A stretch of 64,000 bases of DNA from Aliidiomarina soli (GTDB lineage Bacteria > Pseudomonadota > Gammaproteobacteria > Enterobacterales > Alteromonadaceae), in the NCBI RefSeq assembly GCF_003986975.1, contig NZ_PIPO01000006.1:1-64000 (forward strand). Direction: 5' to 3'. The stretch's first letter is position 1. Every line of letters begins with the position of its first letter. This document shows positions 6,987 through 50,309 of the stretch, piece after piece. Under the pieces are notes generated by a model. It was not told the origin of the DNA, did no database searches, and saw only the letters and a program-made list of their open reading frames with translations. Both the position numbers and the translations under genes were made by a program.

Positions 6987-9900
6987 GTGCAAATTTTGCG
7001 TGGCGCGCCTGCCTTATCCGATTTTCGTCAACAAAAGCTGATCAACCGTATGCAACAAGCGGGCCTTGATGTCCGTTCTGTTAGCGCGGAGTTCATTCAT
7101 TTATATACCGCTGAACCTGCGCTTAACGAGCAACAGCAACATGTATTGCAGCAACTGCTAACCTACGGCCCGGCCCGGGAAGAAAAAGCAGGCGGTGAGC
7201 AGCAAGTTTTTGTCACTCCACGGCAGGGAACCATTTCCCCGTGGTCGTCGAAAGCTACCGATATAGCTCATAATTGTGGGCTGGTAGCGGTTAAGCGAGT
7301 CGAACGGGGCATCTTATATCATCTGCAAGGTGACTTTACGGCTGAACAATGGGAACTCGCGAAAGGCTTTTTACACGACCGGATGACCGAAAGCACATTC
7401 GCTACTCTGGATGAGGCCGAAGTATTGTTTGCCCATGCGCAACCAGCGCCGCTGAGCACCGTCGATATTCTTGCAGATGGCCGTAACGCACTGGCAACGG
7501 CAAATATTAATTTGGGTCTGGCATTGGCAGAGGATGAAATCGACTACCTGGTTGATAATTTCCGTGCCCTTGGCCGTAATCCCAATGACATCGAACTTTA
7601 TATGTTCGCGCAGGCAAACTCAGAGCACTGCCGGCATAAAATCTTCAATGCCGACTGGACGATTGATGGCGCAGAGCAGGCCAAATCGCTGTTTGGGATG
7701 ATTAAAAACACCTTTAAAAGCACCCCGGACTACGTCCTGTCTGCCTACAAAGACAACGCCGCGGTGATGGAAGGCTCTGCAGCCGGACGTTTTTTCCCGG
7801 CACCATTTGGCAGCGCCGATCCGGGTGAGTACGGTTATAGCAACGAAAATATCCACATTCTGATGAAAGTGGAAACCCATAACCACCCGACTGCCATTTC
7901 ACCGTATCCAGGTGCGGCCACCGGCTCGGGCGGTGAAATTCGGGACGAAGGTGCCACGGGTATTGGCGCCAAACCGAAAGCTGGGCTGGTTGGTTTCACC
8001 GTATCCAATTTACGCATTCCAGGTTTCGATCAGCCCTGGGAAGAAGATTTCGGTAAACCCGACCGTATTGTTACCGCGCTTGATATTATGTTGGAAGGCC
8101 CATTAGGGGGCGCCGCCTTTAATAATGAATTTGGCCGCCCGAACATTCTCGGCTATTTCCGTACCTACGAAGAAATGGTTGCAAGCCATAACGGCACCGA
8201 ACTGCGTGGCTACCATAAACCCATTATGATCGCCGGTGGTCTTGGCAATATTCGTGAAGACCACGTTGAAAAAGACGAGATCCCGGTTGGGGCGCCGCTG
8301 GTCGTATTGGGCGGTCCAGCGATGAATATCGGTCTTGGTGGCGGTGCTGCGTCGTCAATGACCTCAGGTACCTCATCAGCTGAACTTGATTTCGCCTCCG
8401 TGCAGCGTGAAAACCCGGAAATCGAACGCCGCTGTCAGGAAGTGATTGATCGCTGCTGGCAGATGGGTGCCGATAACCCCATTGTCTTTATTCATGACGT
8501 TGGTGCAGGTGGCCTGTCCAATGCGATGCCGGAGCTGGTCAATGACGGGGAACGTGGCGGTCAGTTTAAGCTGCGTGCAATCCCGAACGATGAGCCTGGC
8601 ATGAGCCCGTTGGCAATCTGGTGTAACGAGTCCCAGGAACGTTACGTGTTGGCCATCGACCCAGCCAAATTGGCTATATTCAGCGCCTTGTGTGAGCGCG
8701 AGCGTGCGCCGTTCGCGGTGGTAGGTGAAGCAACAGAAGAGCGTCACCTGAAACTGTACGATGAGGTTTTTGATAATTACCCGGTCGACATGCCGCTAAA
8801 CGTACTACTGGGTAAAGCACCGAAAATGCATCGCGACGTGACCAGCCGCAAAGCCGAGGGTGACAACTTTGCGACTCAGGGTATTGCTGTCGACGACGCC
8901 GTAGGTCGTATTTTACGCTTGCCAACGGTGGCTGAAAAAACCTTTTTGATAACCATCGGCGACCGCTCTGTCACCGGCTTAGTGGCTCGTGACCAAATGG
9001 TAGGACCATGGCAGATCCCAGTCGCAAACTGTGGTGTAACCGCCGCGTCGTATGACAGCTATGCCGGTGAAGCCATGTCGATGGGCGAACGCACCCCGGT
9101 GGCATTGCTGGATTACGCTGCCTCGGCCCGTTTAGCGGTTGCCGAAGCGATTACCAATATTGCAGCGAATGCCATTGGTGATCTAAAACGCATTAAGTTG
9201 TCAGCAAACTGGATGGCCGCCGCTGGTCACCCCGGCGAAGATGCCGGTTTGTACGAAGCAGTGAAGGCAGTGGGTGAAGAACTTTGCCCGGCGCTTGGCT
9301 TAACCATCCCGGTTGGCAAAGATTCAATGTCGATGAAAACCCAGTGGCAACAGGACGGCAAAGACACCGCTGTGACCTCACCGCTGTCGTTGGTTATCAC
9401 CGCCTTTGCCCGGGTCACTGATGTACGCAATGCGATTACCCCGCAGTTGCAGCCCAGCGCGAACGAAGATGACAACAAGCTGTTCCTGCTCGATTTAGGC
9501 CGTGGTCAGAACCGTTTAGGTGGTTCCGCCCTGGCGCAGGTCTACCGTTCAATCGGACAGCAGCCAGCAGACCTCGACAGCGCAGAGGATTTAAAAGGCT
9601 TCTTCCATGTTATTCAGACCCTGATCGCCGATGGCCAGCTCAGTGCTTACCACGACCGCTCAGACGGCGGACTCTTTACCACCTTGGCAGAAATGGCGTT
9701 TGCCGGTAACTGCGCCGTGGACGTTGAATTGCCAGCGAACACCGACGCTGTGGCTGCACTCTTCGCTGAAGAGCTGGGCGCAGTGGTTCAGGTCACCGCG
9801 GCCGGCGCTGCGCGGTTGCAGTCCCTGTGCCAAGAACACGGCCTCGACAACGTAGTGGTGGAACTTGGTGTTGTTAGCGCAGGCGATGAAATGCGTATTC

Positions 9901-30488: not shown

Positions 30489-30797
30489 TTATTCTCCGTT
30501 GCCGAACATGTCAGCTTCAAAACTGGCAATGTTGGCAGCGAGACGCTCAGCGTCAATTGAATAGTCGCCATTGGCGAGCGCTTGTTTAATACGCTCGACT
30601 TTGGCTTCATCAACGCCAGAATTGTTTTCTGCACGGCGCTGCAATTGCGCGAGCTGTTGCGCTTGCGGTGTCAGCGAAACCGCGTCCTGACGAGGTGCAG
30701 ACTGAGTAGTCTGAGCTTCTGCCGGACGTGATTGTTGTTCAAATTTAGTGTTCAGTTGAGTGTTGTTGACACTCGAGTTTACGTTATTGATAGCCAT
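30489..30797 (-). CDS. flgM: Anti-sigma-28 factor FlgM
   Basis: FlgM binds FliA (sigma-28) until the hook is finished, then leaves through the export channel, freeing FliA for flagellin transcription. The 102-aa protein has the typical disordered Gln/Ser/Asn-rich N-half and a C-terminal FliA-binding helix region (DEAKVERIKQALANGDYSID, then AERLAANI). A 16/16 consensus FliA promoter lies upstream, giving the classic negative loop in which free FliA makes more FlgM. Confidence 0.92.
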   Translation of the reverse strand: MAINNVNSSVNNTQLNTKFEQQSRPAEAQTTQSAPRQDAVSLTPQAQQLAQLQRRAENNSGVDEAKVERIKQALANGDYSIDAERLAANIASFEADMFGNGE

Positions 30798-30870: not shown

Positions 30871-31575
30871 TTAAAAAACGACACGTACTTCATTGCTGCC
30901 TGAAACCACTGCCTGGACGTCCCGGTTTGAGCGGCTATTGCGTACGGTGATGCGGTCACCCATCAGGCCATCGCTTCGGGCAACCCCGGTCGCGCGAACT
31001 TCCAGCCCATTGGAACCGGATATGATTGTAACATTCTGGCCGCGGCAAACAAAGCAGGTATGACGCGCCTGAATTGCCTGGTTGGTGCCAATACGGCGTT
31101 TTATTTGCGCGCCGAGTAGCTCGTCGATATTGGTGTGCGCTGAGTCGCGTAACTGATGAATGTCGACGTGGTTAAATTTTACGTCACTACGGCCGATAAC
31201 ATCCCCAGGAGACAACGGACGCGCGGCTACTACGATGGCGCGCATTTGCTGAATACGTACTGGAATAAACAGCCGCCAACCTTCATAGTCATGGCATTGA
31301 ATTAATACGGTGGTCTGGCGGTCGAGAGTTGCGTTGTTGGCCAGGTTGACGTCAATGGGTTGCTGGCAGGTGCGGAGCCCCATACGTGGGTCGAGTGAGC
31401 CAGCGCTGACTTCAATCCGGTCATCACTGGATTCACGGGCGATCAACGACTTGACGTGGTCTTCGGCCAGGGTGACCAGCTCGGCTGGGCCATACTGAAG
31501 GGCCTCGGTGCTGTGAGCACTGAGGGGTGCAGCGACTATGGTCAGGAATAGCGTCAGCATTGTGACTGCTTTCAT
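30871..31575 (-). CDS. flgA: Flagellar P-ring chaperone FlgA
   Basis: FlgA is the periplasmic chaperone that helps FlgI assemble the P ring. The 234-aa precursor has a signal peptide (MKAVTMLTLFLTIVAAPLSAHS). An N-domain contains the RMGLRTCQQPIDV motif, and a C-terminal SAF domain (about 110-234) contains ARPLSPGDVIGRSDVKF, IGTNQAIQ and the final NSRSNRDVQAVVSG. It reads on the same strand as flgMN but is 73 bases upstream of flgM with the FliA promoter between. It can therefore be transcribed both before and with flgMN. It diverges from cheV. Confidence 0.92.
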   Translation of the reverse strand: MKAVTMLTLFLTIVAAPLSAHSTEALQYGPAELVTLAEDHVKSLIARESSDDRIEVSAGSLDPRMGLRTCQQPIDVNLANNATLDRQTTVLIQCHDYEGWRLFIPVRIQQMRAIVVAARPLSPGDVIGRSDVKFNHVDIHQLRDSAHTNIDELLGAQIKRRIGTNQAIQARHTCFVCRGQNVTIISGSNGLEVRATGVARSDGLMGDRITVRNSRSNRDVQAVVSGSNEVRVVF

Positions 31576-48416: not shown

Positions 48417-48520
48417 TCCAACTTCCAGCGCTCCTGGCTTTGCCAGCTGCGCGGGGGAAAGAGCCAGCCACTCAGGGAAAGGGGAATTTGGGGCACCCTG
48501 TTTGGCTGGCAGACCTCATC

Positions 48521-48703: not shown

Positions 48704-48793
48704 CCTTGATGTAGGGGAAGGTTTTGTCACTTGTGGTTGGGTGGCATAACACAATAACTAGGCAACAGGTGAAAACCTGTAAAGGAGAATAGT

Positions 48794-49618
48794 ATGTCAC
48801 TATACGTGAATACGAACGTGTCGTCTTTGAACGCACAACGTCAACTTATGACTTCAGGCAGCGGCCTGGATACCGCTTTCGAGCGTCTTTCATCTGGCTT
48901 CCGTATCAACAGCGCTGCTGATGACGCGGCAGGTCTGCAAATCACTAACCGTATGACCTCGCAAATCAATGGCCTGAACATGGCTGTTCGTAACGCGAAC
49001 GACGGTATCTCTGTTGCACAAACCGCTGAAGGCGCCATGCAGGAATCTTCAAACATGTTGCAACGTATGCGTGAACTGGTTGTTCAGGCAGACAACGGTA
49101 TCAACAACGACGAAGATCTGGCGGCTATCAACCAAGAAATTGGTGAGCTGGTTGACGAAATCGATCGTATCGCTGGTACTACTCAGTTTTCTGGTCAGAA
49201 CCTGTTAGACGGTAACTTTGACGCTGACTTCCTGGTTGGTTCACAAGGTTTAGCTGACGAGAAAGTAGGTATCGCGATTGGTAACATGGACGCGCTTACT
49301 CTGGGTGTTGACGCTGCAACTATCACCGTAGCAGCTGGCTTCGACTCAGAAGCTTTCTTAACTGCCATTGATGGCGCTATCGAAACTGTAGGTACAGCAC
49401 GTTCTGAACTGGGTGCCACTCAGAACCGTTTCCAGTCTACTATTTCTAACTTAAGCAACATCTCTGAAAACGTTTCTGGTGCTCGTTCACGCATCATGGA
49501 CACTGACTTTGCTGCAGAAACTGCGAACTTAACTAAGTTCCAGATCACTCAGCAAGCAAGTACTGCTATCTTGGGTCAAGCGAACGCTCGTCCTCAAGCG
49601 GCATTGTCACTGCTGTAA
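48794..49618 (+). CDS. fliC: Flagellin 4
   Basis: A 274-aa flagellin, with standard terminal regions and a distinct middle (GNMDALTLGVDAATITVAAGFDSEAFLTAIDGAIETVG). It ends ...LSLL without the final Gly of the others. DNA in the terminal parts has more T-ending and abundant-tRNA-type codons (GTT, GCT, AAC, CGT) than the neighbours, a pattern seen in very highly expressed genes. It may therefore be the major filament subunit; this is inference. AAAGGAGAA precedes the ATG. It has its own FliA promoter and terminator. Confidence 0.97.
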   Translation: MSLYVNTNVSSLNAQRQLMTSGSGLDTAFERLSSGFRINSAADDAAGLQITNRMTSQINGLNMAVRNANDGISVAQTAEGAMQESSNMLQRMRELVVQADNGINNDEDLAAINQEIGELVDEIDRIAGTTQFSGQNLLDGNFDADFLVGSQGLADEKVGIAIGNMDALTLGVDAATITVAAGFDSEAFLTAIDGAIETVGTARSELGATQNRFQSTISNLSNISENVSGARSRIMDTDFAAETANLTKFQITQQASTAILGQANARPQAALSLL

Positions 49619-49742: not shown

Positions 49743-49897
49743 AAAAAAAGAGTCGACTGAACTGGAAAAGGAGGTTGTAGGGGGGCATCCAGTTCAGCCG
49801 ACAGACAGTCATTGTGAAAGAACCGGCCGAGTTGGAAAAGGAGGTTGTAGGGGGGCATCCAACTCAGCCGGCAGACAGTCGTTAAACCGTTTCACGA
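49743..49897 (-). ncRNA. Candidate sigma-54-dependent sRNA with two anti-Shine-Dalgarno hairpin loops
   Basis: Read on the minus strand, the region contains a 70-nt unit twice. Each unit starts GACTGTCTGyCGGCTGA and forms a 13-14-bp stem around an identical 23-nt loop (ATGCCCCCCTACAACC, then TCCTTTT). The distal hairpin spans 49823-49871 and the proximal one 49752-49802. Loop-closing stem bases differ in a paired way: GAGTTGG/CCAACTC in one, GAACTGG/CCAGTTC in the other. Seven U's (49743-49749) directly follow the second stem, as in an intrinsic terminator. A near-consensus -24/-12 promoter lies about 10 bases before the predicted 5' end. The loops expose CCUCCUUU, complementary to AAAGGAG(G) ribosome sites such as those before flagellins 3 and 4. 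No RNA family is recognised. A 60-codon minus ORF across it is probably chance. Confidence 0.65.
49752..49871 (-). repeat. Tandem hairpin repeat, 70-nt period
   Basis: Two hairpins have identical 23-nt loops (49766-49788, 49836-49858) and diverged but paired stems. Each stem has one mismatch, at different places. The flanking CAGACAGTC (plus strand) is conserved on the same side of both. Confidence 0.85.
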
Positions 49898-49906
49898 TTA
49901 GGATAA

Positions 49907-49922
49907 TGCAGAGCTTGTGCCA
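49907..49922 (-). promoter_or_regulatory. Sigma-54 promoter facing the tandem-hairpin RNA
   Basis: On the minus strand TGGCACAAGCTCTGCA has perfect TGGCAC and TGCA blocks and the exact 12-base GG/GC step. It closely resembles the flgF promoter. The predicted start is near 49897. Confidence 0.75.
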
Positions 49923-49962
49923 ACTTTTTTAAAATCCTGATAAATAATGCAGATAGCTAAAA

Positions 49963-50225: not shown

Positions 50226-50309
50226 CTAACTGAGGTGGGGTAGTCCGTGTCATGTTTTGCGGGCTAAACAGGTTGTAGATCGGGCTTTGCCCGTTTATTG
50301 AGGTGTCGT

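Follow-up and report, generated by a model that had tools for sequence, protein, structure and literature searches.

Among flagellar small RNAs (sRNAs), FliX derives from the 3'UTR of fliC. Tandem or C-rich sRNAs antisense to Shine-Dalgarno sequences include the alphaproteobacterial CCUCCUCCC RNAs and Listeria LhrC. FliX, MotR, UhpU and FlgO are described as sigma28-dependent, UTR-derived sRNAs of Escherichia coli that act on flagella, and the abstract of that work names no opposite-strand sister sRNA (PMC10578931). OmrA and OmrB of E. coli repress the translation of flgM, freeing sigma28, in a paper whose abstract draws no tie to sigma54 (PMC7549644). In Campylobacter jejuni, CjNC1/4 are reported as sigma28-dependent with predicted sigma54-class targets (PMC4626219), and CJnc230 (FlmE) is reported as an RpoN-dependent sRNA of a flagellar locus that is processed from the flgE mRNA, has also an RpoD promoter according to a section heading, and pairs through a single-stranded region with the flgM ribosome site, by which FlgM is repressed, its overexpression raising late genes (PMC11187230).

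The locus described here was observed in a stretch of 64,000 nucleotides of Aliidiomarina soli DNA, hereafter the window, and its features are collected in Table 1. As predicted from sequence, it resembles CJnc230 in being of sigma54 type, in lying in a flagellar locus and in matching the flgM ribosome site; it differs in that a sigma54 promoter of its own is predicted within the flagellin cluster, whereas CJnc230 is cut from the flgE mRNA, in that a hairpin loop would provide the binding site, and in the occurrence of a sister hairpin (type B) in a flagellin 3'UTR. Campylobacter jejuni belongs to a group distant from the host, and the element would act like CJnc230 if the model holds. The proposed flgM repression that would free sigma28 is shared with OmrA/OmrB, which differ by placing a 5' seed on the early coding sequence, by needing Hfq and by also hitting flhD. 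The role proposed for type B, that of a late-class UTR RNA with a regulatory function, resembles FliX, MotR, UhpU and FlgO, although these have other targets. LhrC and the CCUCCUCCC RNAs likewise carry repeated C-rich loops antisense to ribosome sites, but the loop of the present element is longer and nearly invariant, and two hairpins exist in only 2/11 species. With moderate confidence, the locus is considered to encode a sigma54-stage, trans-acting antisense sRNA that would block flgM and tune sigma28-class mRNAs, with type B as its decoy.

Table 1. Features of the sRNA locus, its candidate targets and the sister hairpin in the window.
Feature	Position	Strand	Basis or remark
flgM (anti-sigma28), proposed main target	30489..30797	minus	PF04316, E 3.4e-16
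flgM leader GUAGG...UAGGGGCA, ribosome site complementary to sRNA loop	30802..30825	minus	
Sister hairpin (type B), loop AAAGGGGAATTTGGGGCA	48463..48510	plus	flagellin 3 3'UTR, before terminator
UGUAGGGG right after sigma28-type -10 of flagellin 4	48710..48717	plus	complements loop CCCCUACA
Shine-Dalgarno AAAGGAG of flagellin 4	48781..48787	plus	complements loop CUCCUUU
Flagellin 4, proposed target	48794..49618	plus	convergent with the adjoining sRNA locus
sRNA locus	49743-49923	minus	antisense to flagellins, inside flagellin cluster
Predicted sRNA, ~154 nt	49743..49896	minus	ends placed by promoter and T-run
T7 run following hairpin 2	49749-49743	minus	
Hairpin 2, 15-bp stem	49802-49752; loop 49767-49787	minus	loop same as in hairpin 1
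Hairpin 1, 15-bp stem	49872-49822; loop 49837-49857 UGCCCCCCUACAACCUCCUUU	minus	fold and covariation
Sigma54 -24/-12 type promoter TTGGCACAAGCTCTGCA	49923-49907	minus	sequence and conservation at 11/11 loci
AGGUUGUAG in flagellin 5 leader	50270..50278	plus	9-nt loop complement

The initial annotation had described a sigma54 promoter facing two hairpins with identical loops, spaced 70 nt apart and followed by T7, together with compensatory stem changes (GAGTTGG/CCAACTC versus GAACTGG/CCAGTTC), and all of these were found in the sequence. The loop length of 23 nt that it gave is right when the closing pairs are counted, 21 nt lying inside them, and each full stem measures 15 bp. The start site is expected at ~49896, downstream of TTGGCACAAGCTCTGCA, and hairpin 2 together with the T-run is terminator-like as well. 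For the minus strand, the folding energy is -60.3 kcal/mol (z -8.3), which none of 200 shuffles equalled, and the plus strand gives z -2.7, with 1/200 shuffles equally good. The arrangement observed is real and beyond chance. No family in Rfam 15 matched the window at the gathering score, which agrees with the earlier remark that no family was recognised, and the 6 matches obtained in E-value mode are at chance level (the best reached 16.4 bits, where the cut-offs are 50 and 60). Within the open-licence literature, no paper on this RNA was found by title or abstract opening, and none was found with both Aliidiomarina and 'small RNA'; the sRNA beside the flagellins looks like one that was previously unlisted.

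The sigma54-type promoter proposed ahead of the RNA gained support from the homologous loci, as TTGGCAY-N7-GC, a -24/-12 element, is present within 150 nt upstream of the stem in 11/11 of them, against a background rate of 0.6% of 6,820 slices of 150 nt, and the distance from the expected start to the stem differs between loci (5-58 nt). Judged by this conserved element, the sRNA is probably sigma54-dependent. A similar promoter pattern matched 4 further sites in the window, two of them upstream of the presumed flgB and flgF, middle-stage flagellar genes, and the remaining two at 9833 and at 31091, the latter inside the frame preceding flgM, which is presumably flgA.

A DNA search of 17 genomes of the genus detected the locus in 9, and a covariance model built from 9 hairpins and run on the same 17 genomes returned the same 9. 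A search of genome contigs with the loop pattern yielded 7 stretches, each bearing an Aliidiomarina or Idiomarina MAG label, and added two species with promoter sequences of their own, A. sp. B3213 (L028) and A. celeris (L033). In the order sample, searched under strict filtering (E <= 0.001, with 13 candidates scored for each genome listed), 1/394 was positive, namely the own genome alone; in the family sample (E <= 0.1), 5/39 were positive, comprising the own genome and 4 weak matches of 20-26 bits, two of which are short terminator-like hairpins and none of which showed a flagellin-like frame in its 3-kb locus by a simple regular expression. Plasmids and viral contigs gave 0 matches to the sRNA each, and the order, family, plasmid, viral and contig searches leave room for diverged homologues. 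Flagellins are present in all 17 genomes of the genus, and those of the 9 sRNA-positive genomes are closer relatives of the window's flagellins, so the presence of the sRNA seems to follow one lineage; judged from flagellin similarity, the positive species look like a single lineage. Two tandem hairpins occur only in the window species (G000) and its near twin G009, and one hairpin in the other 9 species.

The stems and the loop displayed different patterns of change. Among 9 sequences, 135/135 stem cells are paired, with double changes in 10/15 pairs, and slid controls drop to 16-52%. After addition of the stems of L028 and L033, which stand outside the training set of the covariance model and of which the L033 stem is identical to that of G011, 10 distinct stems representing 11 species gave 150/150 paired cells, comprising 127 Watson-Crick and 23 G-U pairs with 0 mismatched. 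The loop UGCCCCCCUACAACCUCCUUU is identical in 9/11 species, G013 having one C extra and G016 a shortened 3' end. Homologous loci with conserved stems and an unconserved loop had been named in advance as evidence against the RNA, and the opposite was found, the loop being kept while the stems covary. Complete pairing with 23 G-U pairs, together with the near-invariant loop, argues for an RNA that is read antisense to the flagellins. A plus-strand RNA for the element at 49743-49877 was excluded by the fold and by the G-U pairs, since the 23 G-U pairs would be A-C mismatches there. A CsrA decoy was also rejected, as there is no GGA within the loop, and where the window copies carry one at the loop edge, other species show GGG or GAG. 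Comparison among species supports a conserved RNA fold, its strand, its promoter and its near-invariant loop.

The flgM gene, overlooked in the initial annotation, emerged unexpectedly when upstream regions were ranked by duplex energy with the loop, and it appears to be the likeliest main target of the sRNA. The loop segments UGCCCC and CUAC match its ribosome site. GGGGCA stands just before the flgM ATG in 9/9 sRNA-positive genomes versus 0/8 sRNA-negative genomes, a split that may represent one evolutionary event, so that the tests are not independent, and [C/U]GUAG lies farther upstream in the short sigma28-type flgM leader in 9/9 versus 1/8. The idea was drawn from five genomes and G016, with G005 and G013 as new confirmations, and G009 in this comparison is a near twin of the window genome. 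The mean loop-flgM duplex energy, computed without accessibility and with the flgM start of G004, G010 and G014 placed at an upstream TTG, was -20.4 kcal/mol in the positive and -10.6 kcal/mol in the negative genomes; the former was matched by 3/2000 mononucleotide and 39/2000 dinucleotide shuffles of the loop, whereas the latter is unremarkable, being matched by 591 and 845 of 2000 shuffles. Dinucleotide shuffles across the target tests give p of only ~0.01-0.03. Among upstream regions, flgM ranked 5/53, 8/40, 2/38, 1/37, 1/38 and 2/39, and no rank was obtained for G005, G009 and G013, whose stretches leave flgM outside or hold it at their edge; other genes stood higher in some rankings, among them 27145 (window) and 29630 (G013). 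The complementarity is conserved together with the sRNA, as expected of an sRNA that represses flgM, though within one lineage. Separately, the flgM start codon seems to be TTG in the 8 sRNA-negative genomes and ATG in the positive ones.

Loop complements were also observed at other late flagellar genes. The AAAGGAG sites that the initial annotation placed ahead of flagellins 3 and 4 were correct. In 9/9 sRNA-positive genomes, flagellin or flaG leaders carry the tag [U/C]GUAGGGG 7-8 nt past their sigma28-type -10, close to where some flagellin mRNAs of sigma28 type are predicted to begin, and GUAGGGG was found in 0/9 flagellin leaders of sRNA-negative genomes, with 0 matches of the pattern CCGAWAN{2,14}GTAGGGG at the flagellin clusters of the 8 negative genomes. 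GUAGGGG is present upstream of 22/57 late genes versus 1/274 others, any 7-nt loop complement upstream of 49% of late genes versus 4.7% of others (a contrast reached by 8/2000 mononucleotide and 27/2000 dinucleotide shuffles), and AAAGGAG upstream of 12/59 late genes, all 12 of them flagellins, versus 3/274 others. GGGGCA within 150 nt upstream is not specific to flgM, as it was found at 16/59 late genes (flgM 8/8, flagellin 5, flaG 3) and at 12/274 others; in the ribosome site proper it was found in 10 genes among 418 frames, including flgM 6, flagellin 2 and flaG 1. The late-gene counts omit G009, which is near-identical to G000, and the flgM of G005 and G013 is included in the counts of 59 and absent from that of 57. 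For the count of 57 the classifier found 0 late genes in two sRNA-negative regions, and the counts of 59 exclude those regions, so that neither supplies an sRNA-negative control; the non-independence of related genomes applies to all target counts. Genome-wide, CCGAWAN{2,14}GTAGGGG gave 18 matches versus 13 in a reversed control, 13/18 being at flagellin loci and 5 non-flagellar, and TAAAN{13,17}CCGATAN{5,11}GTAG gave 27 versus 28 in the control, 11/27 being at flgM, flagellin or flaG of positive genomes; both leader patterns are not rare and are telling through location and spacing only. Within the regions examined, the complementarity predicted for the loop is concentrated on late flagellar genes, and the overlapping late-gene matches together span most of the loop and would account for its near-complete conservation.

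These matches raise a competing explanation, which we regard as unlikely though worth weighing, in which flagellin and flaG mRNAs and not flgM are the main targets, so that sigma28-class messages would be held back or 5'-protected during the sigma54 stage. The location of the sRNA inside the flagellin cluster, the tag soon after the sigma28-type -10 in every positive genome and the restriction of the late-gene AAAGGAG sites to flagellins agree with it, but the tag is carried by only some flagellins per genome, and the UGCCCC part of the loop fits flgM in 8/8 non-redundant genomes and only 5 flagellin and 3 flaG leaders. The flagellin UGUAGGGG lies ~75-85 nt upstream of the start codon, and a duplex at that distance would not directly block ribosomes and could even stabilise the mRNA.

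Some flagellin leaders (48718-48780 in the window; G005, G006, G009) display, as judged by eye, an apparent hairpin with a constant loop UUGUGGUUGG and a changing stem, situated after the 5' tag and ahead of the ribosome site. In the near twins, a sigma28-type promoter with GGGTAGG behind it was also noticed at G000:C1:421198-421235 and G009:C1:526009-526046, preceding a 453-aa frame with a hydrophobic start.

The covariance model also found weaker hairpins downstream of another flagellin, the type B hairpins, and both ends of the window's type B loop are complementary to the sRNA loop. An alignment of 8 type B stems (6 obtained with the antisense-strand model and 2 by sight of sense-strand scans) holds 120 cells, namely 97 Watson-Crick, 19 G-U, 0 A-C and 4 other, with double changes in 8 pairs and pairing on the flagellin-sense strand; an earlier list had been filtered for good sense-strand stems, which favours the sense strand, and the alignment was recounted without this filter. 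Since the window copy contains two mismatches and lacks a G-U pair, its strand was assigned from the relatives. Type B loops mostly retain (A)AAGG[A/G]G and (G)GGGC[A/G], which are exact or G-U complements of the sRNA loop ends, and the mean loop-loop energy with the sRNA is -20.3 kcal/mol versus -10.8 kcal/mol for shuffles (0/500 as good), the energies taken species by species being reached by 0 to 41 of 500 shuffles. A clear copy exists in 9/11 species, the copy of G005 is degenerate, and G016 yielded none. In the sRNA loop of G016, CCUCUUA replaces CCUCCUUU, while the flgM-matching part and the flgM site are intact; this is one case, yet it seems to fit what a decoy or partner would leave behind. 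Type B and the sRNA look like homologous DNA on opposite strands, and their complementarity would thus be partly by descent. These patterns make type B a candidate decoy for the sRNA.

The same features bear on a sense-antisense pair, in which the sRNA would mainly control, or be controlled by, the type B hairpin and the leader matches would be secondary. Covariation of the two hairpins on opposite strands, loops complementary at both ends and the altered loop part of G016, where no type B was found, are consistent with such a pair; it is nevertheless quite unlikely, because the middle of the loop, CUACAA, is invariant yet unmatched in type B loops and because homology accounts for part of the complementarity. 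As a further observation, the type B loops of G007, G011, G012, L028 and L033 contain a possible inner GGAG/CUCC-like hairpin, which would hide part of the site that matches the sRNA.

The initial annotation had suggested a generic anti-Shine-Dalgarno RNA pairing with many strong ribosome sites, which is improbable. The loop does contain ACCUCCUU, which we take to be the 16S tail sequence, and pairs with AAAGGAG, and the matches to late flagellar genes stood; the anti-Shine-Dalgarno part, however, is one stretch of a loop that is conserved nearly throughout, beyond CCUCC, with the flgM site as its best-conserved partner, other genes in these regions are poor in 7-nt complements (1868 and 1967 of 2000 shuffles give at least their 4.7%), and in G016 the anti-Shine-Dalgarno part is the part changed. 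It is scarcely credible that there is no regulatory RNA and that the locus is a short ORF (AUG/GUG CCC CCC UAC AAC CUC CUU), a repeat element or a palindrome at the DNA level. Although AUG or GUG stands at the loop start and the stems are palindromic, third codon positions vary no more than the others and the G-U pairs favour a single RNA strand. A loop peptide was ruled out by the extra C of G013, which shifts the frame, and a repeat element by the low copy number, each genome having one such locus and no more than one weaker sister match (E <= 0.01).

According to the preferred reading, with flgM as the main target, the sRNA would be transcribed from its sigma54 promoter along with the hook-basal-body genes, and its rigid hairpins would display the fixed 21-nt loop. 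Pairing of the loop with the flgM ribosome site (GUAG...GGGGCA) would leave less FlgM in the hook-basal-body stage and ease the release of sigma28, while overlapping loop segments may pair with sigma28-class leaders, at the [U/C]GUAGGGG tag, at the AAAGGAG site of some flagellins and at flaG in some species, with a possible effect in either direction. Rising flagellin mRNA would bring the type B hairpin, titrating the sRNA as a decoy. Transcription, pairing in the cell, the direction of regulation and the decoy role are all inferred from these comparisons. Only tentatively can it be proposed that one ancestral hairpin behind the flagellins gave rise to two opposite-strand RNAs, a sigma54-stage sRNA directed at flgM and late messages and a sigma28-stage 3'UTR decoy copying its target sites, which together would form a self-resetting sigma timer.

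The sRNA may help to time the handover between two flagellar stages. If the preferred reading is true, both Campylobacter and a flagellated marine gammaproteobacterium have RpoN-dependent sRNAs acting against FlgM, perhaps through convergence, and this suggests that an RNA layer is often part of the handover from sigma54 to sigma28. An sRNA decoy that arose as a sister hairpin on the opposite strand would have an unusual origin. With loop, target sites and decoy all delimited at single-base resolution, the switch is testable with few point mutations.

Two minor features were observed close to the sRNA in related species. A flagellin-like stretch with 2 in-frame TAG stops adjoins the sRNA locus at G011:C1:128216-128575, and in A. 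celeris (L033), from ~5850, a unit of ~70 bases is present twice in tandem soon after the sRNA hairpin.
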